A stretch of 64,000 nt of DNA from Blautia parvula (GTDB taxonomy: Bacteria > Bacillota > Clostridia > Lachnospirales > Lachnospiraceae). The position numbers and the translations under genes were made by a program. The notes beneath the pieces are model-generated. The model worked only from the letters and a program-made list of their open reading frames with translations. It ran no database searches and was not told where the DNA came from. The stretch is taken from positions 868,001 through 932,000 of the forward strand of contig NZ_CP084061.1 of the NCBI RefSeq assembly GCF_020215665.1, written 5' to 3'. Positions 13,082 to 22,813 of the stretch are shown piece after piece; within the stretch, counting starts at the first letter, position 1; the number at the start of each line of letters is the position of its first letter.

Positions 13082-14173
13082 ATGGCGATTCCTTTTCATG
13101 AAGATGAGCTGACTGTAGTAGAAATATCAAAGGCATTCCGAGATGCCAGTGTACCGGTGTTTCATTATCCGATCACCATGAGAGAGGCCTGGAAAAGAAT
13201 GGCTTTAGACAAAAAACCGGTATGGATGTGTACCGGTGTGGAAACTTTTAGCTTTTATCCGGATATCATTCCCGATAATCGTGCCAGAGGCTATGTCAAT
13301 GACGGCGGAAGACGTATCAAAGAGGAAGAAAAGGGCGGAAGAGATATGTTCGGCATTGAATGGATTTATGTTCCTGTGGCAGAAGGTTCTATGGAAAAGC
13401 CGGGATGTCCCCACTTATTTGAGGATGCCAATGATTGGAAGGCAGCCGTCAAATGGCCGGATATAGATTCCTGGGACTGGGAAGCAAGCAAAAAAGAGAA
13501 TGCAGAGTTCCTGAAAAATGACCAGTTCCGGTATATAACATTCCTGAATGGTTTTGGTTTTGAGCGTCTCATTTCTTTTATGGGATTTGAAGCGGCTGCC
13601 ATGGCACTGGTTGACGAGGAGCAGCAGGATGCTTTAAAGGAGCTTTTTGACAGGCTGTCCGATTTATATTGCAGAATCATTGACAAATGCTGTGAGGCAT
13701 ATGATATTGACGGATTCATAATCCATGACGACTGGGGAACCCAGAGAGCGCCGTTTTTTTCTTTTGATACAGGCAGGGAACTGCTCGTTCCTTATATGAA
13801 AAAGGTGACGGACCATATCCATGCAAAAGGAAAGGTGGCCGAACTGCACAGCTGCGGTTGTAATGAAATGCAGATTGAAAATTATATTGCCGGCGGATGG
13901 GATATATGGGGGCCTATGAGCAATATAAATAATACACAAAGACTTTTTGAAGATTACGGAGATAAGATTATTCTGGGAGTAATGCCGGATCTTTACGATC
14001 CGAAGGTTGATTCTGAGGAAACCATCCGTGAAAAGGCGAATGCCTTTGTTCAAAAGTTTTGTTCTGACCCAGATAAAATCTGTATTATCAATCGGTACTT
14101 CGGGCCATATCTGCAAGGGGTATATGCAGAGGAACTTTATAAAGCATCTCGTATGAAATATGAAAACTGCTGA
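13082..14173 (+). CDS. uroporphyrinogen decarboxylase family protein (MtaA/CmuA-like)
   Basis: A 363-residue UroD-fold protein, closer to the corrinoid:coenzyme methyltransferase branch (MtaA/CmuA) than to haem-pathway HemE. Support is the region HDDWGTQRAPFFS, then AELHSCGCNEMQIENYIAGGWDIWGP, where the His-x-Cys pair resembles the zinc ligands of MtaA-type enzymes. The usual later cysteine ligand is not obvious. No corrinoid protein or MtaB/MttB-type gene is nearby, so it may work with proteins encoded elsewhere or catalyse something else. It is the first gene of an operon with two transporters under its own strong promoter and probably PucR control, suggesting catabolism of an imported organic acid or methylated compound. 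Confidence 0.75.
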   Translation: MAIPFHEDELTVVEISKAFRDASVPVFHYPITMREAWKRMALDKKPVWMCTGVETFSFYPDIIPDNRARGYVNDGGRRIKEEEKGGRDMFGIEWIYVPVAEGSMEKPGCPHLFEDANDWKAAVKWPDIDSWDWEASKKENAEFLKNDQFRYITFLNGFGFERLISFMGFEAAAMALVDEEQQDALKELFDRLSDLYCRIIDKCCEAYDIDGFIIHDDWGTQRAPFFSFDTGRELLVPYMKKVTDHIHAKGKVAELHSCGCNEMQIENYIAGGWDIWGPMSNINNTQRLFEDYGDKIILGVMPDLYDPKVDSEETIREKANAFVQKFCSDPDKICIINRYFGPYLQGVYAEELYKASRMKYENC

Positions 14174-14196
14174 AACAGACTTAGGGAGGGGTAAAT

Positions 14197-15573
14197 ATGG
14201 GTGACGCTATCCGCATTCTTGTTACACTAGTCATGATTGCCATGATCTTGATCATTGTGGCAAGAAAGTATTATACTGCAACAGCTTTTCTTGGTATTGG
14301 ATTTGTGGTTCTGCTGGTGACAACACTGATAACCGGCCAGAGTGCCATTGCCGAGGGCGGTTCCGGTAACGCGGTTGTAGATGTTTTTGAAGTAATGGCA
14401 AATGCTATTACCACATCGCTTGGTTCTACAGGCCTTGTAATTATGGTAGTCATGGGATATGTGGGCTATATGACGCATGTAAAGGCAGCAGAATTGTTCA
14501 GCATCGTAGTGGCAAGACCGCTGCGGAAAATAAAACATTCGGAAATATTGATTTTTGCCACTTTTGTGCTGGTCGTAATCGTGAAGCTTGCCATTCCTTC
14601 CAGCTCGAGCGAAGTTTCTCTTCTGATAGCAACTGTCTTTCCGGTTTTGATAGCTGTGGGTATCAGTAAAGAGACATCGGCATCCCTTTTAATGGTTGCA
14701 ACAGCTATTGTCTGGGGGCCTTCCAACACGCTGGCGCTTACTGCTTTTAACGGTGCAGGACTGGAGAATATTTCTATTCCCGTTTATTTTGTGACAAAAG
14801 AGATTCTTCCGGTGATTTGTATGATCGTAGTGGGGACCATTGTATTTATTCTTGTGAACAAATACTTTGATAAAAAAGAAGGAGTGCTGGTAAGCCGTTC
14901 AGAACTTCCGGAATTAAAGGATGTGAAAGAGCTTGGGATTCCTAAATTCTATGCAGTTTTTCCGGTACTTCCGGTATTACTGGTGATTGTTTTCAGCCCT
15001 ATTGTACAGCAGTATATTACAATCTCCGTAGTAGCTGCCAATTTTATGTCGTTCCTTTTGGTCATGATCATTGAAATTATCCGGAAACGTAATATACGCC
15101 GGACTTTTGAAGATTCCAAGGCTCTTTTTGAAGGAATGGGTAAAGCATTTGTCAGTGTCGTATCTATTCTTATCGGTATCAATGTATTTTCGGCGGCGCT
15201 GAATCAGGTGGGTGGTTTGAAAATACTGGCCGGAGCATTTGCGGGCGCCGGGGGAGGGACAATTACCATTGCAGTGATCGGTGCCATTGCGGCATTTATC
15301 CTGATAGGTATCGGCAGTTCCATCAGCGGAACACTTCCTTTGTTTTCATCACTGTATGCGGCTTTTGCTGCATCAGAAGGCGAACTGGTCAATATGGTGC
15401 GTATCCTGATTTTTGGCGGAAGCCTTGCCAGTGCTGTCAATCCCATTGCGCCTACGACCATGATCGTCAGCGGCGGCTGTAATGTACCTATTACGACAAT
15501 TATCAAGAGAACCATTATTCCTGCACTGGCATGTCTGCTTACAGAAATGATCGTGTGTATTCTGATTCCCTAA
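14197..15573 (+). CDS. DcuC-family C4-dicarboxylate transporter
   Basis: A 458-residue integral membrane protein with about 12 hydrophobic segments. The N-terminal half follows the DcuC pattern: a region like MGYVGYMTHVKAAELFSIV and then LAIPSSSSEVSLLIATVFPVLIAVGISKETSAS, corresponding to the conserved serine-rich re-entrant segment and the following helix. DcuC proteins exchange or export succinate and similar C4 acids. The gene follows the UroD-like gene by 23 bp with GGGAGGGG before the ATG, so it is co-transcribed. The actual substrate is unknown. Confidence 0.75.
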   Translation: MGDAIRILVTLVMIAMILIIVARKYYTATAFLGIGFVVLLVTTLITGQSAIAEGGSGNAVVDVFEVMANAITTSLGSTGLVIMVVMGYVGYMTHVKAAELFSIVVARPLRKIKHSEILIFATFVLVVIVKLAIPSSSSEVSLLIATVFPVLIAVGISKETSASLLMVATAIVWGPSNTLALTAFNGAGLENISIPVYFVTKEILPVICMIVVGTIVFILVNKYFDKKEGVLVSRSELPELKDVKELGIPKFYAVFPVLPVLLVIVFSPIVQQYITISVVAANFMSFLLVMIIEIIRKRNIRRTFEDSKALFEGMGKAFVSVVSILIGINVFSAALNQVGGLKILAGAFAGAGGGTITIAVIGAIAAFILIGIGSSISGTLPLFSSLYAAFAASEGELVNMVRILIFGGSLASAVNPIAPTTMIVSGGCNVPITTIIKRTIIPALACLLTEMIVCILIP

Positions 15574-15609
15574 ACAGAAGGACGTAAAATTTTCCGGAGG
15601 TAAAGTGTT

Positions 15610-16881
15610 ATGAATACAGAAATTCTGATCACGTTGGTCATTCTGCTTTGCGCAGTGGTTTTTTATTCCACAACCTGGATGAATATGACTGCCACATCCC
15701 TGCTTATTCTGGCTGCACTTTATCTCTCCGGGATTGTATCTGTATCGGAACTGTTTGTCAATCTGGTAAACAGTTCTACGCTTCTGGTCATCTTTATGTT
15801 TATCATCAGTGGTTCGCTTTTGAAATCAGGAGCCTCCGCATTTATCGGAAAATGCCTGCTTTGGCATGCAGTGTCTGAAAAACAGATCGTTATGCGCCTG
15901 CTGCTGCTTTCCATGCTGCTGTCTGCATTTTTCAGCAATATGGCAACCGCGGCAGTGGTGGCTACCTTTGCAGTAGGTATAGCGAAATCAAGCAAAGCAT
16001 ACCGTCTTCCCAAAATGACAATGAGCATAGCGGTGGGGAGCATCCTTGGAGGCATGCTTACTATTATAGGTGTTTCCGGGAATGTAATGGTAAGAACATT
16101 TTTGGAAGAGGCGGGGGCAGGTACTGTCGGATTCTGGGATTTTGGGAAGATAGGTCTTCCTCTCTGCATTACGGGTTATATTTATATGTATTTTATCGGC
16201 TACAGGCTGTCGCCTTCTCAGTCTGTAACGGAGTCTGCCATAAACGACACAGAAAAGCAGGATAACGTATACAGGAAAGGACAATGCATATTTACTTTGA
16301 TGGTATTTGCATCGGTGGTTATCTGTATGATGTTGGAAAATATAATCCATCTTCCAATCCACATGGCGGCATTTTTCGGAAGTCTGGTACTGATCGTCAG
16401 CAGGACGGTAACGGAGAAAGAGGCGTTTTCCTATGTGAATTGGCCTACAACACTTATGTTTGCAAGTCTTCTGACTCTGGGCGCTGCAATTTCCAAGTCC
16501 GGAGCAGCCCCTTTGATTTCCGACACTTTTTTGCGGTTGTTTGGGGAGGAGACGAATAAGACATTTATTTTGGTCGTTTTCTTCGTTTTTATTGTGATCA
16601 TCACGCAGTTTATGTCCAACGGTGCCACGGCAGCCGTTTTTTATCCCATTGGTCTTTCTGTTGCACAGCAGTTGAATGTCAGTCCTGTGGCAGCCCTGAT
16701 GATGGTCTGTGTGGCAGCGGGCAGCTCTTTTGCAACGCCGATGGCGACACCGCTGAATGCATACTTAATGTCGGTTTCCGGATGTCGTTTTTCTGATTAT
16801 ATGAAAGTAGGAGTACCTTTATTGCTGCTTACAACGATTGTCTGTGTGATTTTGTGTCCTTTGATTTGGCGTATTGGCTGA
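15610..16881 (+). CDS. SLC13/DASS-type anion transporter
   Basis: A 423-residue membrane protein of the ion transporter superfamily. Two related segments, LLSAFFSNMATAAVVATFAVGIA and ITQFMSNGATAAVFYPIGLSVA, sit in the two halves and match the repeated Ser-Asn-Thr-type substrate loops of divalent anion:sodium symporters; the later PMATPLNAYLM is typical too. It is third in the operon (36 bp after the DcuC-like gene, CCGGAGG upstream). Having two unrelated anion transporters beside one enzyme suggests uptake plus product efflux, which is inference. Confidence 0.75.
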   Translation: MNTEILITLVILLCAVVFYSTTWMNMTATSLLILAALYLSGIVSVSELFVNLVNSSTLLVIFMFIISGSLLKSGASAFIGKCLLWHAVSEKQIVMRLLLLSMLLSAFFSNMATAAVVATFAVGIAKSSKAYRLPKMTMSIAVGSILGGMLTIIGVSGNVMVRTFLEEAGAGTVGFWDFGKIGLPLCITGYIYMYFIGYRLSPSQSVTESAINDTEKQDNVYRKGQCIFTLMVFASVVICMMLENIIHLPIHMAAFFGSLVLIVSRTVTEKEAFSYVNWPTTLMFASLLTLGAAISKSGAAPLISDTFLRLFGEETNKTFILVVFFVFIVIITQFMSNGATAAVFYPIGLSVAQQLNVSPVAALMMVCVAAGSSFATPMATPLNAYLMSVSGCRFSDYMKVGVPLLLLTTIVCVILCPLIWRIG

Positions 16882-16888
16882 ATCGAAA

Positions 16889-16914
16889 CGCCTCCCCGGG
16901 AGTACGGGGAGGCG
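16889..16914. terminator. bidirectional terminator hairpin between convergent genes
   Basis: CGCCTCCCCG (16889-16898) pairs perfectly with CGGGGAGGCG (16905-16914) around a 6-nt loop. It separates the transporter operon from the hydrogenase gene on the opposite strand. The T-tract is weak on both sides. Confidence 0.65.
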
Positions 16915-16920
16915 CCAATA

Positions 16921-18960
16921 TTAATAGTTTTCTTTCCTTACTTCAAAATAACTCTGTGAATACTTGCAGACAGGGCATACCTCAGGTGCCTTTTTCCCCA
17001 TAACCAAATGTCCGCAGATACGGCATTCCCACATGGTTTCCTCCCCTTTTTCAAATACCTGCTGCATCTCTACATTTTTAAGAAGGGCACGGTAACGCTC
17101 TTCATGGGACTTCTCGATTGCGCCTACTCTGCGGAATCGTTCTGCCAATTCCGGGAAGCCTTCTTCTTCGGCGTCTTTGGCCATGCGGTCATACATGTCC
17201 GTCCATTCATAGTTTTCTCCTTCGGCTGCTGCCAGCAGATTCTGGGCGGTGTGTCCCAGATGCCCCAGCTCCTGATACCAGATCCGGGCATGCTCCTGTT
17301 CATTGCGGGCCGTTTTAAGGAAGATTTCCGATAACTGGTCATAGCCTTCCTGACTTGCAATATTGGCAAAATAGGTGTATTTGTTGCGTGCCTGGCTTTC
17401 ACCGGCAAAAGCTTCCATCAGGTTTTTCTCTGTTTTCGTTCCGGCATAAGGATTTTCGGATGAAGCCTGTTTTTCTTCGATTTTTTCAAATGCGGTTGCC
17501 GGCTGTTTGCACACAGGGCAGGTAAAGCCTTCTGTTAATGGTCCTTCATGTATATAACCACAGATTTTACAGCGATATTTCTCCATTGTTTTTCCTCCCA
17601 GATCTTTGCTTCTGTCTATATAGTTTGTATGTAACATTTCTTCTGCCAGCCTGCTGAGCGGCTGGCCGTAAAATTCTCGATACAATTGCTGGATTTCAGC
17701 ATTGTCATGGCTGTTGCGCAGCTTCATCTCATCATCGCGCTTATATAATCCGGCAATCCGTTCTTTGCGCAGTTCGTCTCCCTTTAACAAAGTTCCCTTT
17801 GGCTGACCGCCGCCGCCGATGCAGCCGCCCGGACAGGTCATGACTTCGATAAAATGATAGGTTTGTCCGCTGCTGCGCCATTTTCGGATGAATTCTGTGG
17901 CTGCCTTTGTGCCAAAGATGACAACAGCTTTTAATTTGAGCGGGCCGATGGTCACTTCTGCTTCTTTTACGGATTCCATACCGCGGACGGGTTTTAGATT
18001 ATAAAAATCAGCAGGGGCGGGATTGCCTGTAATGAACTGATGGGCAGTGCGCAGAGCAGCCTCCATGACACCTCCTGTATTTCCGAATATGACACCTGCG
18101 CCGGAGGCCTCCCCCATAAAGGAATCGTAGTCTGAGTCTTTCAGGGACGCAAAATCAATGTTCTCTTCTTTCGCCCATTTTGCCAGTTCCCTGGTGGTGA
18201 TCACATAGTCCATATCGCGCATATCCTCAATATCAAGATATTTGGAGGCTGCGTTCATTTCCCCGCGGCGGATCTCGAATTTCTTGGCAGTACAGGGGGT
18301 GACAGCTACATTGACGATTTTTGCCGGGTCCAGCCCCATTTTTTTCGCAAAATAAGTTTTGACTGTGGGACCCTGCATACCGATAGGACTCTTGGATGAA
18401 GAGATATGTGCCAGGATATCCGGATGATAGGTTTCTGCGTATTTTACCCAAGAAGGGCAGCAGCTTGTGAACTGGGGGAGAGGCGCAGTCTTCTTTGTAA
18501 CACGCTCAATTAACTCACTGGCTTCCTCCATGATTGTCAGGTCGGCTGCAAAATTGGTGTCTAATACATAATCACCACCCAATTTCCGCAGTAAAGCGAT
18601 CATTTTTCCCTGTACAAAACTTCCGCCGGACAGATCAAATTCTTCCCCTAAAGCGATTCTTACGGAGGGGGAGGTGTTGAAAATGACAATTTTATCCGGA
18701 TCAGCGATTGCATTTCTTACATCCTGGTATTCATATTTTTCGGTGATACTGGAGACAGGACAGACATTTGCGCACTGACCGCAGTTGATACAGACTGCCC
18801 GGTTGTTCGTATCTTCTAATTCGTAGGTATCATGAACACCTATATAATCTGTGCAGATGATCTTGCACTGTCCGCATTTTATGCACAGCGATTCGTCACG
18901 CATAATGGATGGGTTATCCGGCTCGATGGGGACACGCACACTCTTTGGTAAATGATTCAT
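16921..18960 (-). CDS. [FeFe] hydrogenase fused to rubredoxin-rubrerythrin
   Basis: One 679-residue frame joins two proteins. Residues 1 to about 455 are a monomeric-type [FeFe] hydrogenase: two [4Fe-4S] motifs (Cys26/29/32/36 and Cys57/60/63/67), then the H-cluster motifs TSCCPSW (Cys167/168), TPCTAKKFE (Cys223) and [14 protein letters not shown] (Cys376/380). Ala225 replaces the Ser seen in the classic PCTSK motif, and the C-terminal motif reads CPGGC rather than CHGGC, pointing away from the standard Clostridium CpI type. From residue 459 follow an N-terminal rubredoxin ([13 protein letters not shown]), a ferritin-like di-iron domain ([21 protein letters not shown]) and a second rubredoxin (ECRICG..CPVCK). 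Rubrerythrins reduce peroxide and oxygen, so the fusion could couple hydrogen to oxygen or peroxide detoxification. A complete internal start signal lies at the junction. Confidence 0.88.
17584..17599 (-). promoter_or_regulatory. internal ribosome binding site and start codon at the fusion junction
   Basis: On the minus strand GGGAGG (17599-17594) lies 7 nt before an in-frame ATG (17586-17584, Met459). Translation from here would give a stand-alone 221-residue rubredoxin-rubrerythrin-rubredoxin protein of normal size. No stop codon separates it from the hydrogenase. Confidence 0.7.
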
Positions 18961-18980
18961 GGAAACCTCCTTTGATAAAT

Positions 18981-19032
18981 GATAATTGTTACTGTTATTA
19001 TTATATTATACCAAAATTATCCAGTTTGTCAA
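18981..19032 (-). promoter_or_regulatory. hydrogenase promoter with AT-rich operator-like sequence
   Basis: Minus-strand -35 TTGACA (at 19032-19027), 16-bp spacer, -10 TATAAT (19010-19005). Just downstream (18981-19000) is a GATAAT/ATTATT-rich stretch resembling PerR/Fur-type operators, placed where a repressor would block initiation. The promoter is clear; the PerR/Fur assignment is weak. Confidence 0.6.
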
Positions 19033-19079
19033 TGAAAATGGATAAAATTAGTTAGGTAAAAGTGAACGCTGAAAAGCGC

Positions 19080-19107
19080 TTGCTTTTTAAGCGGGTTATT
19101 GTATACT
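19080..19107 (+). promoter_or_regulatory. candidate promoter of the M20 amidohydrolase
   Basis: TTGCTT (19080-19085), 16-bp spacer, TATACT (19102-19107), about 58 bp before the start codon. Confidence 0.45.
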
Positions 19108-19165
19108 ACTTTATAAAGTCGTACATAACAGATAAACTTTTAAAACCCAAAAGAGGAGAATGCAA

Positions 19166-20332
19166 ATGAATACAAAAATTTTTCAGGAGGCCATGGAAAT
19201 ACAGGAGGAATTGACAAAATGGAGACATGAGCTGCATAAGATACCGGAAATCGGTCTTGTACTTCCAAAGACCAGTGCCTTTGTTCAGAAAAAGCTGGAG
19301 GAATTTCAAATTCCTTTTGAGACGAAAGTAGAAGGAAATTGTGTTGTGGGATGTCTGGGAAAGGGAGAGCAGTGTCTGATGCTCCGGGCAGATATGGATG
19401 GGCTGCCTATGCAGGAGGAGACAGGACTGCCTTACGCCTCAGAGAATGGGAATATGCATGCCTGCGGTCATGATCTGCACACAGCAGCCCTTCTGGGAGC
19501 AGCAAAATTGCTGAAAGTGCATGAGAGGGAACTGAAAGGATGCATCAAGCTTTTATTCCAGCCTGCGGAAGAAACTTTTCTCGGAGCAGAGGCAGCCATA
19601 CATGACGGTGTATTGGAAAATCCTAAAGTGGATGCAGCGGTTGGTCTCCATGTAGCCTCCGAGTTTCCGGTAGGTGTTGTGGCATATGGAACACAGGAAT
19701 ACGCTTCTGTCTATGGATTTAAGATCATACTGACAGGAAAGGGAACTCATGGAGCCATGCCGCAGAATGGTATCGATCCTATCAACGCAGGGGTCCATAT
19801 TTACCTGGCTCTGCAGGAATTGATGGCGCGTGAGTGTGATCCTGCGGAAGAGGCGGCGCTGACGATCGGACAGTTTACCGCCGGAAATGCAGCGAATGTG
19901 ATTCCTGAGCAGGCAGTCCTCCAGGGTACGCTCCGGACATTTGATGAAAAAACGCATGTACAGATGATCCGGCGCATTGAAGAAGTTGTCAGCGGGGTAG
20001 CGGCCACTTACCGTGTCCGGGCTGAAATTGAAGTGCTCAGTGATGTTCCGGTCCTCAACTGTGAGGAATCACAAAATGAACATTTTGCCAAAGCGTTTAA
20101 GGAAATGTCTCCGGAGCTGAAAATCTTCCCCGATGTTCATACCATGGGCTCCGAGGATTTTGCATTCTACGCACAAAAAGTACCCTCCTCCTATTTTATG
20201 GTGGGAGCAAAGCAGGAGGAGACTGCTATATCCTATGCGCATCATAATCCAAAAGTCTGCTTCAGTGATAAAGCGCTTCCCATAGCGGCATCCATCTATG
20301 CCTGCGCTGCGCTGAACTGGCAGATTGAGTAA
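19166..20332 (+). CDS. M20 family metallopeptidase/amidohydrolase
   Basis: About 388 residues. The M20D amidohydrolase pattern is visible: ADMDGLPMQEETGLPYAS, HACGHDLHTAALLGAA (metal ligands), QPAEETFLGAEA (catalytic Glu pair), the dimerisation-domain GTHGAMPQNGIDPI, and C-terminal HTMGSEDFAFYAQKVP. This group hydrolyses N-acyl amino acids, such as hippurate hydrolase and N-acetyl-diaminopimelate deacetylase. ATG 19166 is chosen over 19160 because AGAGGAG leaves 7 nt rather than 1 nt. It is monocistronic, ending at a strong terminator. Confidence 0.9.
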   Translation: MNTKIFQEAMEIQEELTKWRHELHKIPEIGLVLPKTSAFVQKKLEEFQIPFETKVEGNCVVGCLGKGEQCLMLRADMDGLPMQEETGLPYASENGNMHACGHDLHTAALLGAAKLLKVHERELKGCIKLLFQPAEETFLGAEAAIHDGVLENPKVDAAVGLHVASEFPVGVVAYGTQEYASVYGFKIILTGKGTHGAMPQNGIDPINAGVHIYLALQELMARECDPAEEAALTIGQFTAGNAANVIPEQAVLQGTLRTFDEKTHVQMIRRIEEVVSGVAATYRVRAEIEVLSDVPVLNCEESQNEHFAKAFKEMSPELKIFPDVHTMGSEDFAFYAQKVPSSYFMVGAKQEETAISYAHHNPKVCFSDKALPIAASIYACAALNWQIE

Positions 20333-20388
20333 GAGAAGCTAACCGTTTCCCCATTTCAGACACCGTTTGGCGGACAATGAGATGACAT

Positions 20389-20438
20389 GCAAAAAGCTGC
20401 CAGGCTCTCCGAAAAAGAGCGGCAGCTTTTTGCTATTT
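20389..20438 (+). terminator. strong rho-independent terminator
   Basis: GCAAAAAGCTGCC (20389-20401) pairs perfectly with GGCAGCTTTTTGC (20421-20433), with an inner GCTCT/AGAGC stem, then a T-rich tail. The symmetrical A and T tracts let it serve both the M20 gene and the convergent FeoAB gene. Confidence 0.85.
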
Positions 20439-20476
20439 TATAAAGGTTCATTCTGATTTGCGACTGCCGCCGGTTT

Positions 20477-22813
20477 TTAAAACATTCCGGCTACTATATG
20501 TACAAGCAGTGCCGCAATCCAGGCGATCACGCATTGCCCGGCTACAACTGCGCAGGCCCATTTTCCGCCAAGTTCCCTTTTGATGGAGGCAACCGCCGCT
20601 ACGCACGGCGTATACAACAGACAGAAGACAAGAAGAGCAGCTGCGCCTGCGGTTGTCAGTGTGCCGAGCAGCATATCTGTCCTGCCAAAAAGAACGGTCA
20701 GTGTAGAAACAACGCTTTCTTTTGCCATAAATCCACTGACCAGAGCTGTGGAAATCCTCCAGTCTCCAAACCCAAGGGGTGAAAAAACAGGAGCGATCAC
20801 ACCGGCAATGGCAGCAAGAATACTGTCTTTGGAGTCTGAGACCATATTCAGACTCATATCAAAGCTCTGCAGGAACCAGATGATAATGGTTGCAATAAAA
20901 ATAACGGTAAAAGCCCTTTCAAGAAAATCCTTTGCTTTCTCCCAGAGCAGCTGTCCCACGTTTTTTGCTCCCGGCATGCGGTAATTGGGAAGCTCCATCA
21001 CAAAAGGAACCGGTTCTCCCCTGAACATGGTACTCTTAAAAAGCAATGCCATCAGTATGCCTGTCAAAATCCCGAACACATACAATCCGATCATTACAAG
21101 CGCTGCCCGATCCGGGAAAAATGCCTCTGTAAAAAACGCATATATGGGAAGCTTTGCAGTACAGCTCATAAACGGGGTCAGTAAAATGGTCATCTTCCGG
21201 TCTCTCTCTGAAGACAGAGTCCGGCTGGCCATCACGCCGGGAACCGTACAGCCGAATCCGATCAGCATGGGAACGATACTTCTGCCGGATAAGCCGAGTT
21301 TACGCAGAAGCTTATCCATAATAAACGCAACTCTTGCCATATAGCCGCTGTCCTCCAGAAGGGACAGAAAGAAAAACAGAGTCACAATGATGGGAAGAAA
21401 GCTTAGCACGCCTCCCACACCGCTGAAGATACCGTCAATGATAAGAGAGTGTACAGCTTCATTTACGTGTGCTGCCGTCATGGCGCTGTCTGCAAGTTGT
21501 GTCATCCATGTGATCACCGCTTCCAGCGCACCCTGAAGCCATGCGCCTATCACATTGAAGGTCAGCCAGAAGACCACAGCCATGATTCCGATAAAAGAGG
21601 GAATCCCTGTGTATTTTCCGGTAAGTATGCGGTCCATTCTTTTGCTCCGCAGCCGTTCCCTGCTTTCTTTTGGTTTCATGACTGCTGTGTCACAGGCGCG
21701 GTTAATATAGGCAAACCGCATGTCTGCCACTGCCGAGGCGCGGTCCATCCCTGTCTCTTCCTCTGTCTGGATCACAATGTGTTCCAGCATTTCTTTTTCA
21801 TTCTGGCTTAAATCAAGCTGCTCCAGAATCCGGTTATCGCCTTCCATGATTTTGCTGGCTGCAAAACGTATGGGAATGTTTTCGGTCCTGGCGTGGTCTT
21901 CGATCAGATGCATCACTGCGTGGAGTCCTCTGTGAATGCCGCTTCCGGTGTCTGCGCAGAAATCTGTTTTGGCAGGAGCTTCCTGATATTTGGCAACATG
22001 GACTGCATGTTTTACCAGTTCTTCGATGCCTTCTCCCTTAGATGCGGAAATGGGCACTACCGGCACACCCAGAAATGCTTCCATATCATTGACCTTCACG
22101 GAACCTCCGTTCTCCAACAGTTCATCCATCATGTTTAACGCTACGACCATGGGCATGTTTAATTCCATCAACTGCATGGTCAGATACAGGTTGCGCTCCA
22201 TATTGGTGGAATCCACGATATTGATGATTCCTTTGGGTCTGTCTTTCAACAGAAATTCCCTTGTCACAATTTCTTCGCTGCTGTAAGGCGACATGGAATA
22301 GATACCCGGAAGGTCTGTGATCCGTGTGTTTTTATGGCCTTTTATCACCCCGTCTTTTCGGTCTACGGTAACACCGGGAAAATTTCCCACATGCTGATTG
22401 GAGCCGGTCAGCTGATTAAACAAGGTGGTCTTGCCGCAGTTTTGGTTGCCCACAAGCGCAAAGGTAAGGATTTCACTGTCCGGAAGGGGATTTTCCTGCT
22501 CTTTTACGTGGTATTTTCCGCCTTCTCCGTATCCGGGATGGGGTGCTTCCGTGATCTTTATTTTTTCCTCTTCTTTTTCAGAAGTGCGGTGGATTTCTTC
22601 CACCTGGATTTTTTCCGCGTCATCAAGCCGGATGGTCAGTTCGTATCCGTGGAGCTTTAATTCGATGGGGTCTCCCATAGGTGCGTATTTGACAACCGTT
22701 ACCTCCGTCCCCTGAATCAGTCCCATATCCAGAAAATGCTGGCGCAGCGCCCCGCTTCCGCCGACAGAATGTATAATGGCTGTTTTTCCAATCTTCAGTT
22801 CTTTTAAAGTCAT
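20477..22813 (-). CDS. feoB: FeoA-FeoB fusion, ferrous iron transporter
   Basis: A 778-residue protein takes up Fe2+ across the cytoplasmic membrane. Residues 1-75 are a FeoA SH3-like domain (LKELKIGKTAIIHSVGG, RQHFLDMGLIQGTEV), followed by a charged linker and the FeoB G domain: G1 GNQNCGKTT (122-130), G2 region GVTVDRKDG, G3 DLPG (167-170), G4 NMMD. The C-terminal half holds the Gate/core membrane helices, including MLIGFGCTVPGVMASRTL and SCTAKLPIYAFF. FeoA and FeoB are usually separate genes. An upstream in-frame extension exists, but the ATG at 22813 has AAGGAG 7 nt before it. It is divergent from an AraC-type regulator. Confidence 0.93.
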   Translation of the reverse strand: MTLKELKIGKTAIIHSVGGSGALRQHFLDMGLIQGTEVTVVKYAPMGDPIELKLHGYELTIRLDDAEKIQVEEIHRTSEKEEEKIKITEAPHPGYGEGGKYHVKEQENPLPDSEILTFALVGNQNCGKTTLFNQLTGSNQHVGNFPGVTVDRKDGVIKGHKNTRITDLPGIYSMSPYSSEEIVTREFLLKDRPKGIINIVDSTNMERNLYLTMQLMELNMPMVVALNMMDELLENGGSVKVNDMEAFLGVPVVPISASKGEGIEELVKHAVHVAKYQEAPAKTDFCADTGSGIHRGLHAVMHLIEDHARTENIPIRFAASKIMEGDNRILEQLDLSQNEKEMLEHIVIQTEEETGMDRASAVADMRFAYINRACDTAVMKPKESRERLRSKRMDRILTGKYTGIPSFIGIMAVVFWLTFNVIGAWLQGALEAVITWMTQLADSAMTAAHVNEAVHSLIIDGIFSGVGGVLSFLPIIVTLFFFLSLLEDSGYMARVAFIMDKLLRKLGLSGRSIVPMLIGFGCTVPGVMASRTLSSERDRKMTILLTPFMSCTAKLPIYAFFTEAFFPDRAALVMIGLYVFGILTGILMALLFKSTMFRGEPVPFVMELPNYRMPGAKNVGQLLWEKAKDFLERAFTVIFIATIIIWFLQSFDMSLNMVSDSKDSILAAIAGVIAPVFSPLGFGDWRISTALVSGFMAKESVVSTLTVLFGRTDMLLGTLTTAGAAALLVFCLLYTPCVAAVASIKRELGGKWACAVVAGQCVIAWIAALLVHIVAGMF

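Follow-up and report, generated by a model that had tools for sequence, protein, structure and literature searches.

The window analysed here is the whole 64,000-nucleotide stretch of the Blautia parvula contig NZ_CP084061.1 (positions 868,001 to 932,000), and the gene under study lies on its reverse strand (Table 1). The frame is uninterrupted, with zero stops in its 679 codons. Pfam matches within it were to Fe_hyd_lg_C, Fe_hyd_SSU, Rubrerythrin, RUBY_RBDX (twice) and 4Fe-4S domains, and the domains follow the order 4Fe-4S, H-cluster, SSU-like, rubredoxin-like, diiron rubrerythrin and second rubredoxin-like. In NCBIfam the N-terminal part was assigned to the group A [FeFe] hydrogenases and the second part to the rubrerythrins, both above the cut-offs. 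A single frame joining an [FeFe] hydrogenase to a rubredoxin-rubrerythrin-rubredoxin protein, as the first-pass annotation had read it, is what both profile libraries recover.

Table 1. Features of the hydR locus in window coordinates. Energies are for Shine-Dalgarno (SD) pairing.
Feature	Position	Strand	Basis
Promoter TTGACA-16-TATAAT, 12/12, TG before the -10 box	19005..19032	-	Match to sigma-70 consensus only
Palindromic operator-like element AATAACAGTAACAATTATCATT, over the expected transcription start	18978..18999	-	Regulator putative
SD AAAGGAGG of the full-length start (ATG 18960)	18966..18973	-	-13.0 kcal/mol
hydR, [FeFe] hydrogenase-rubrerythrin fusion, 679 aa	16921..18960	-	Frame, Pfam/NCBIfam
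Hydrogenase part, residues 1-456	17593..18960	-	Pfam, motif scan
Two CxxCxxCxxxC motifs (4Fe-4S F-clusters)	18853-18885, 18760-18792	-	Motif scan
H-cluster L1 TSCCPSW	18448-18468	-	Motif scan
H-cluster L2 TPCTAKKFE	18274-18300	-	Motif scan
H-cluster L3	17806-17847	-	Motif scan
Internal SD GGGAGG at the junction	17594..17599	-	-10.8 kcal/mol; GGAGG-to-ATG spacing 7 nt
Proposed second product, free 221-aa rubredoxin-rubrerythrin-rubredoxin	16921..17586	-	Putative; junction ATG in 41/41
N-terminal rubredoxin motif CxxC..CxxC, residues 464-484	17509..17571	-	Motif scan
Diiron rubrerythrin domain, residues 512-627	17080..17427	-	Pfam PF02915
C-terminal rubredoxin motif, residues 646-665	16966..17025	-	Motif scan

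Chimeras of an [FeFe] hydrogenase and a rubrerythrin have been named HydR by Taylor et al. (2025; PMC11926857), who credit their prediction to Calusinska et al. The H-cluster motifs given there are TSCCPxW (L1), [MT]PCxxKxxE (L2) and, as printed, ExMACx2GCx2GGGP (L3). The window protein matches L1 and L2 exactly and L3 with T for A and one extra residue before P. It also has the hydrogenase followed by the rubrerythrin in a single open reading frame, two 4Fe-4S F-cluster motifs and two rubredoxin motifs. On this domain plan and these motifs the window gene is identified as hydR, and the fusion itself was already known.

The ExxH motifs of the rubrerythrin domain are EQEH (residues 554-557) and EKSH (616-619); residues E521, E554, H557, E585, E616, H619 and E620 are invariant in 31 HydRs. 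These conserved Glu and His residues probably include the ligands of the diiron site, which in HydR consists of four Glu and two His. Relative to Desulfovibrio rubrerythrin (DvRbr), the window rubrerythrin is without 13 residues (170 residues aligned to 183 of the structure). Taylor et al. (2025) argued that where this 13-residue loop is missing, the diiron bundle needs two chains (PMC11926857). A model of the fusion predicted from 13 sequences had a mean pLDDT of 73.2 and a pTM of 0.62, and its low-confidence segments include, among others, residues 454-459 at the junction and 568-585 in the loop between two bundle helices. Low model confidence at these places fits a flexible tether and a bundle left open by one chain, and proves neither.

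The characterized HydR of Clostridium perfringens (CperHydR, CPF_1076) oxidises H2, barely evolves it and reduces H2O2 with H2 (PMC11926857). It is like the window protein in domain order, metal-site motifs and the 13-residue loop gap, and the L2 motif TPCTAKKFE is identical in the two. Because this motif is shared, the window protein would be expected to be biased towards H2 oxidation; from the common plan and motifs, electron flow from H2 to H2O2 can be inferred for it as well. The direct route from H2 to peroxide proposed in the first reading has been established experimentally in a protein of the same plan, while electron flow to O2 is not among the CperHydR reactions reported in the available text of that paper.

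The genome is a single 6.25-Mb contig. It also encodes HydG (950.6 bits), two more [FeFe]-hydrogenase-like frames (41 and 39% identical) and several more rubrerythrins. The neighbours of hydR in the window, named by eye, are transporters, an M20-type peptidase and a FeoA-FeoB-like protein, and offered no lead. No near DNA match to window positions 14000-22000 was found in the plasmid collection, which speaks against a plasmid origin of the window copy, although relatives do lie on plasmids.

The palindromic operator-like element (18999-18978) directly follows the -10 box of the candidate promoter. A pattern drawn from hydR upstream regions was scanned over the genome. With at most one mismatch it occurs at two genome sites, the hydR promoter and positions 4206952-4206973 upstream of two rubrerythrin-like genes. 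With three mismatches, a level at which hits equal those of the control, a further site (4207426-4207447, L004) is found 18 nt ahead of the neighbouring Fur-family gene; that gene has PerR as its best NCBIfam match, below cut-off. Since hits with up to three mismatches numbered 21 for the pattern and 21 for the reversed-pattern control, only the two best sites carry weight. Similar elements precede 17 of 62 class A and B genes against 1.1 expected, an expectation from mononucleotide shuffles in a comparison that is partly circular. In L068, of a second clade, a Fur-family gene precedes hydR, its stop overlapping the hydR start. These sites suggest that a PerR-like repressor may act on the hydR promoter and that a peroxide regulon of the rubrerythrin-like genes, the Fur-family gene and hydR is possible in this genome.

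Homologues were collected from 20 genomes of the genus, 397 of the family and 391 of the class, and from a set of 61 made up of the window's genome and its relatives. Also searched were 206 genomes of another family, presumably Clostridiaceae and identified through its CpI-type hydrogenases, along with viral contigs, plasmids and named genomes (best 80 loci). The resulting 169 loci comprised 41 fusions of a hydrogenase with a long rubrerythrin, one with a short rubrerythrin, 26 hydrogenase-alone frames (including three broken hydR genes and one cut by a contig end), eight hydrogenases with other C-termini, 33 long-rubrerythrin-alone frames and 22 long rubrerythrins behind another N-terminal stretch, plus others. 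Because L065, L066 and L067 are copies of L040, L044 and L046, values are also given for 38 distinct tips and for 24 clusters at 80% identity; the copies are included in the 41 and omitted from the trees. The initial junction rule covered 39 fused genes, and L159 and L160 were added separately owing to their extra rubredoxin repeats. These two HydRs (746 and 734 aa) carry rubredoxin-like repeats between hydrogenase and rubrerythrin, and their internal ATG sits before the first of them. The fusion to a short rubrerythrin (L079) stands outside the 41 and also has an ATG, behind AAGGAAGGG.

The fusion was present in 20 of the 397 family genomes by hand count (one of these, G079/L052, with an internal stop), in 5 of the 206 genomes of the family taken to be Clostridiaceae and in 1 of the 20 genus genomes, the window's own. 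Among the matches listed, fusion loci are labelled Lachnospiraceae, Oscillospiraceae, Spirochaetales and Sutterellaceae, and the fusion is also found on Peptostreptococcaceae and Fusobacteriaceae plasmids; hydR-bearing plasmids of 139-231 kb come from Paraclostridium bifermentans (L150, L154) and Cetobacterium somerae (L151, L152). On the Cetobacterium plasmids a short rubrerythrin gene adjoins hydR or lies close to it; in L151 an IS3 element separates the two, and in L152 ahpC is also in the vicinity. Viral contigs gave three loci, with rubrerythrin only. L147, a 57.6-kb IMG/VR contig listed as viral, encodes a rubrerythrin fusion of the flavin-reductase type.

At the junction, the GGGAGG and correctly spaced ATG (17599-17584) described in the first-pass annotation are confirmed: the ATG (17586-17584) is codon 459, in frame, and opens the 221-residue rubrerythrin. 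In the window gene alone this signal is weak and unexceptional. Three of its 20 internal in-frame ATGs (the junction and 19 controls) have SD pairing of -10 kcal/mol or better, namely the junction at -10.8, the ATG before the C-terminal rubredoxin at -11.5 and one more at -10.2 kcal/mol; it is conservation that carries the claim. The site before the C-terminal rubredoxin consists of GGGGAGG and an ATG at 17046-17032 on the reverse strand. A third product starting there (17034-17032) was considered and rejected because this start is not conserved (ATG in just 15 of the 41 fused homologues, nine of these with SD pairing of -6 or better), and the site served as a control.

Across the 41 fused homologues an in-frame ATG stands just before the first rubredoxin in every case, always with SD pairing of -6 or better, so that a conserved in-frame start and a ribosome-binding site, one of the marks of genes with a functional internal start, are found together in 41/41. 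Mean SD energy was -10.9 kcal/mol at the junction (41 genes), close to the -11.5 of the genes' own starts (39) and the -10.5 of 30 stand-alone long-rubrerythrin starts, against -3.8 for 794 other in-frame ATGs. In 39 fused homologues only 3 of 757 other internal ATGs reached -10.8, one being the window's own. The junction is the best internal SD site in 35 of the 41 genes and exceeds the gene's median in all 24 clusters (Wilcoxon p 9e-6). The weakest junction sites are those of L077 (-6.5; an exact SD core is missing there), L073 (-6.8; Parasutterella secunda) and L075 (-7.3). The unfolding cost of the junction start was 3.9 versus 11.0 kcal/mol, partly owing to A-rich linkers. On a hydrogenase tree of the 38 fused tips, spanning 10.5 substitutions per site, the Met codon shows no change; every other offset between -12 and +7 requires 6-18 amino-acid replacements.

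Other fusions served as controls. Hydrogenases of the same clade that carry rubredoxin-type or other C-termini and no rubrerythrin have the junction Met in two of eight cases and lack it in six. Among the 22 long rubrerythrins behind other N-terminal stretches, of which all were included in the ATG listing and 21 in the SD scoring, the junction Met is found in none of six fused to a flavin reductase and in all 14 of a family with a ferredoxin-like N-terminus (L089, L090, L091, L095, L100, L104, L105, L112, L114, L116, L119, L127, L139 and L144). In this family the N-terminal stretch of about 160-230 residues is 4Fe-4S ferredoxin-like, or rubredoxin in L095; the 13 scored members all have SD pairing of -9.3 or better, and the unscored L144 has GGAGG unusually distant. 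Pfam was run on L091 and L100 (ferredoxin-like), L095 (rubredoxin) and L155 (flavin-reductase), and the others were assigned by BLAST linkage. The remaining two frames are L129, glutamate-synthase-like and with a junction ATG, and L052, a broken hydR. The L129 frame (3-1634, +), in which the glutamate-synthase-like domain is fused to a long rubrerythrin, is cut by the contig start. A further frame, L053 (241-3126, -; 962 aa), joins a HydR-type hydrogenase to a rubredoxin-like stretch and a glutamate-synthase-like FMN domain.

The history of the fusion was read from quick trees with SH-aLRT support only. Hydrogenase-alone genes fall both outside and inside the fused clades, and the clade's deepest-branching hydrogenases carry no fusion. 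The hydrogenase-alone gene L010 groups beside the window gene (SH-aLRT 87); its hydrogenase is 80% identical and ends at the junction. L055 likewise ends at the junction, with the last codons of a rubrerythrin remaining behind its stop. These two cases show that loss of the rubrerythrin happens, and the several hydrogenase-alone genes nested in fused clades are best read as secondary loss. In the rubrerythrin tree fused and free forms are mixed, with up to 18 changes of state, six of them forced by starred branches, so more than one fusion event is likely. In the sequence available, an intact long-rubrerythrin cistron follows only three of the 26 hydrogenase-alone frames, and these are the broken genes L052 (a stop inside the hydrogenase), L085 (a linker frameshift, Extibacter muris) and L153 (a frameshift on a plasmid, possibly a sequencing error); in this survey the downstream sequence of L086 and L078 was absent or short. 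In all three broken genes the rubrerythrin frame stays open behind its own SD and ATG. A short rubrerythrin follows L082 and precedes L088.

These comparisons bear on the two origins offered in the first-pass annotation, a recent fusion by loss of a stop codon and a gene deliberately giving tethered and free peroxidase. Homologous fusions were sought, and 41 were collected; that many open fused frames in many assemblies also dispose of a sequencing error hiding a stop. The comparison of homologues for a stop at the junction gave a divided answer, in that hydrogenase-alone genes do exist, but several are nested in fused clades (as L010 is) and L055 reflects secondary loss. A recent stop loss finds no support, the fusion being widespread from Lachnospiraceae to Fusobacteriaceae plasmids, with no hydrogenase of this clade, apart from the broken hydR genes, found next to an intact long-rubrerythrin cistron in the sequence available. 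The conservation and the controls instead support a conserved two-product gene. We put the probability that one hydR mRNA yields both the fusion and a free rubrerythrin from the junction start at about 0.78; the second product is predicted from the 41/41 conservation.

The most serious competing explanation is that the SD and ATG are functionless today, left over from free-standing rubrerythrin genes that one or more fusions took up. Long rubrerythrins encoded alone do have their start at this very point, behind an SD of the same type: L011, a rubredoxin-rubrerythrin-rubredoxin protein of about 220 aa, begins at the same residue as the proposed short product and is 79% identical to it over 221 residues, although unlike the window gene it is a gene of its own without a hydrogenase. 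The mixing of fused and free rubrerythrins points the same way, and arrangements such as that of L114 (a hydrogenase-rubredoxin gene, then a ferredoxin-rubrerythrin gene) and L092 (a hydrogenase of an unrelated clade, then a long rubrerythrin gene) could feed fusions. Because such a tree allows repeated fusions, the count of changes was redone within clades on which both trees agree, covering 4.25 substitutions per site. There the Met again shows no change and position -4, inside the SD, changes once, whereas the other linker positions from -10 to -1 change four to eight times; on the rubrerythrin side, +1 to +7 change one to four times (+5 and +6 once each). A signal without a role would hardly keep its Met and SD over such a distance, and the flavin-reductase and hydrogenase-rubredoxin fusions lack the junction start (apart from the two of eight that keep the Met). 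We regard a mere remnant as improbable.

A constraint on the protein or on elongation could also preserve the region, if the linker were a Lys/Gly/Glu-rich tether or if SD-like pausing let the hydrogenase fold first. K, G, E and D dominate the linkers, such peptides already give an expected SD energy of about -8.5, and the junction is predicted to be flexible. Pausing needs no ATG, however, and the Met codon is invariant. The SD cores, found in 40 genes at spacings of 6-11, moreover occupy all three codon registers (5/19/16) with different peptides, the linkers comprising 35 different sequences of 11-54 residues. Against the two-product reading, synonymous choice shows only a weak bias once the linker peptide is fixed (combined p 0.001 for 39 non-independent genes, individual p values mostly 0.03-0.7). 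The linker residues contribute to the signal as much as the codons do, and it becomes visible only when genes are compared. Such a constraint is a very unlikely explanation, and slightly less likely still is a free rubrerythrin arising from linker proteolysis or an internal promoter in place of initiation within the long mRNA. The low model confidence of residues 454-459 would suit a cleavable linker, yet cutting would not preserve an SD and an ATG, and a consensus scan of the coding strand within the frame gave no sigma-70-like site.

Under the two-product reading, the hydrogenase part would split H2 and electrons would pass through the two 4Fe-4S clusters and the rubredoxin sites to the diiron peroxidase, which, as part of a soluble enzyme, would turn H2O2 into water. 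On the same mRNA, ribosomes loading at the junction SD would initiate at Met459 and produce the free 221-residue rubrerythrin. The rubrerythrin part should need a partner chain, because it is without the loop thought to close its own four-helix bundle; the free chain could supply untethered partners, giving mixed HydR:rubrerythrin dimers or tetramers, and free rubrerythrin might also be fed by other donors. This mixed assembly is the least certain step. The rubrerythrin of Clostridioides difficile is a tetramer in solution (PMC11980386). Under peroxide, both forms would rise if a PerR-like repressor controls the promoter.

A single frame with a second start within it is also found in cas8b/cas11b (PMC11899642) and in Shigella Spa33 (PMC6925163), where the short C-terminal products are proposed to join the same complex as the long ones. 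In those systems the short product has been detected, whereas for hydR it is predicted from comparison of genes. CperHydR was handled as one polypeptide, probably a homodimer, and the main text of PMC11926857 mentions neither an internal start nor a short form. The literature searched, mostly open access, did not describe an internal start in HydR, and the available text of PMC13252398 and PMC8444407 has nothing on hydrogenase-rubrerythrin fusions. The conserved internal start would be the new element.

The same long rubrerythrin stands behind a different input domain in L091 (ferredoxin-like, Kineothrix alysoides), L155 (flavin-reductase) and L129 (glutamate-synthase-like), and unlike in HydR the input in fusions of these types is not H2. 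The internal start is kept in the ferredoxin-like fusions and absent from the flavin-reductase type. We entertain, as a tentative reading somewhat short of probable, that rubrerythrins fused to input modules (hydrogenase, ferredoxin-like and possibly glutamate-synthase-like) form a general class in which each mRNA gives tethered and free rubrerythrin. Since one chain alone would not complete the diiron bundle, the two forms would co-assemble, and a small number of input modules would serve a larger set of peroxidase subunits, the internal ribosome site setting the ratio.

HydR has so far been studied as a single fused polypeptide, likely a homodimer (PMC11926857). If free rubrerythrin is made too, the native complex may be mixed, its stoichiometry from H2 to peroxide may be unlike that of the recombinant enzyme, and both forms may be present in preparations tagged at the C-terminus; hydR would then show, for a redox enzyme, internal translation at work in setting the ratio of subunits. 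The wider set of fusions bears on the electron partners of the C. difficile rubrerythrin, a question stated to be open (PMC11980386). A link of a glutamate-synthase-like protein to rubrerythrin electron supply has been proposed, and not proven, for C. difficile CD0828 (PMC11980386), and the fusions in L053 and L129 would tie glutamate-synthase-like domains to that supply in the way proposed there.
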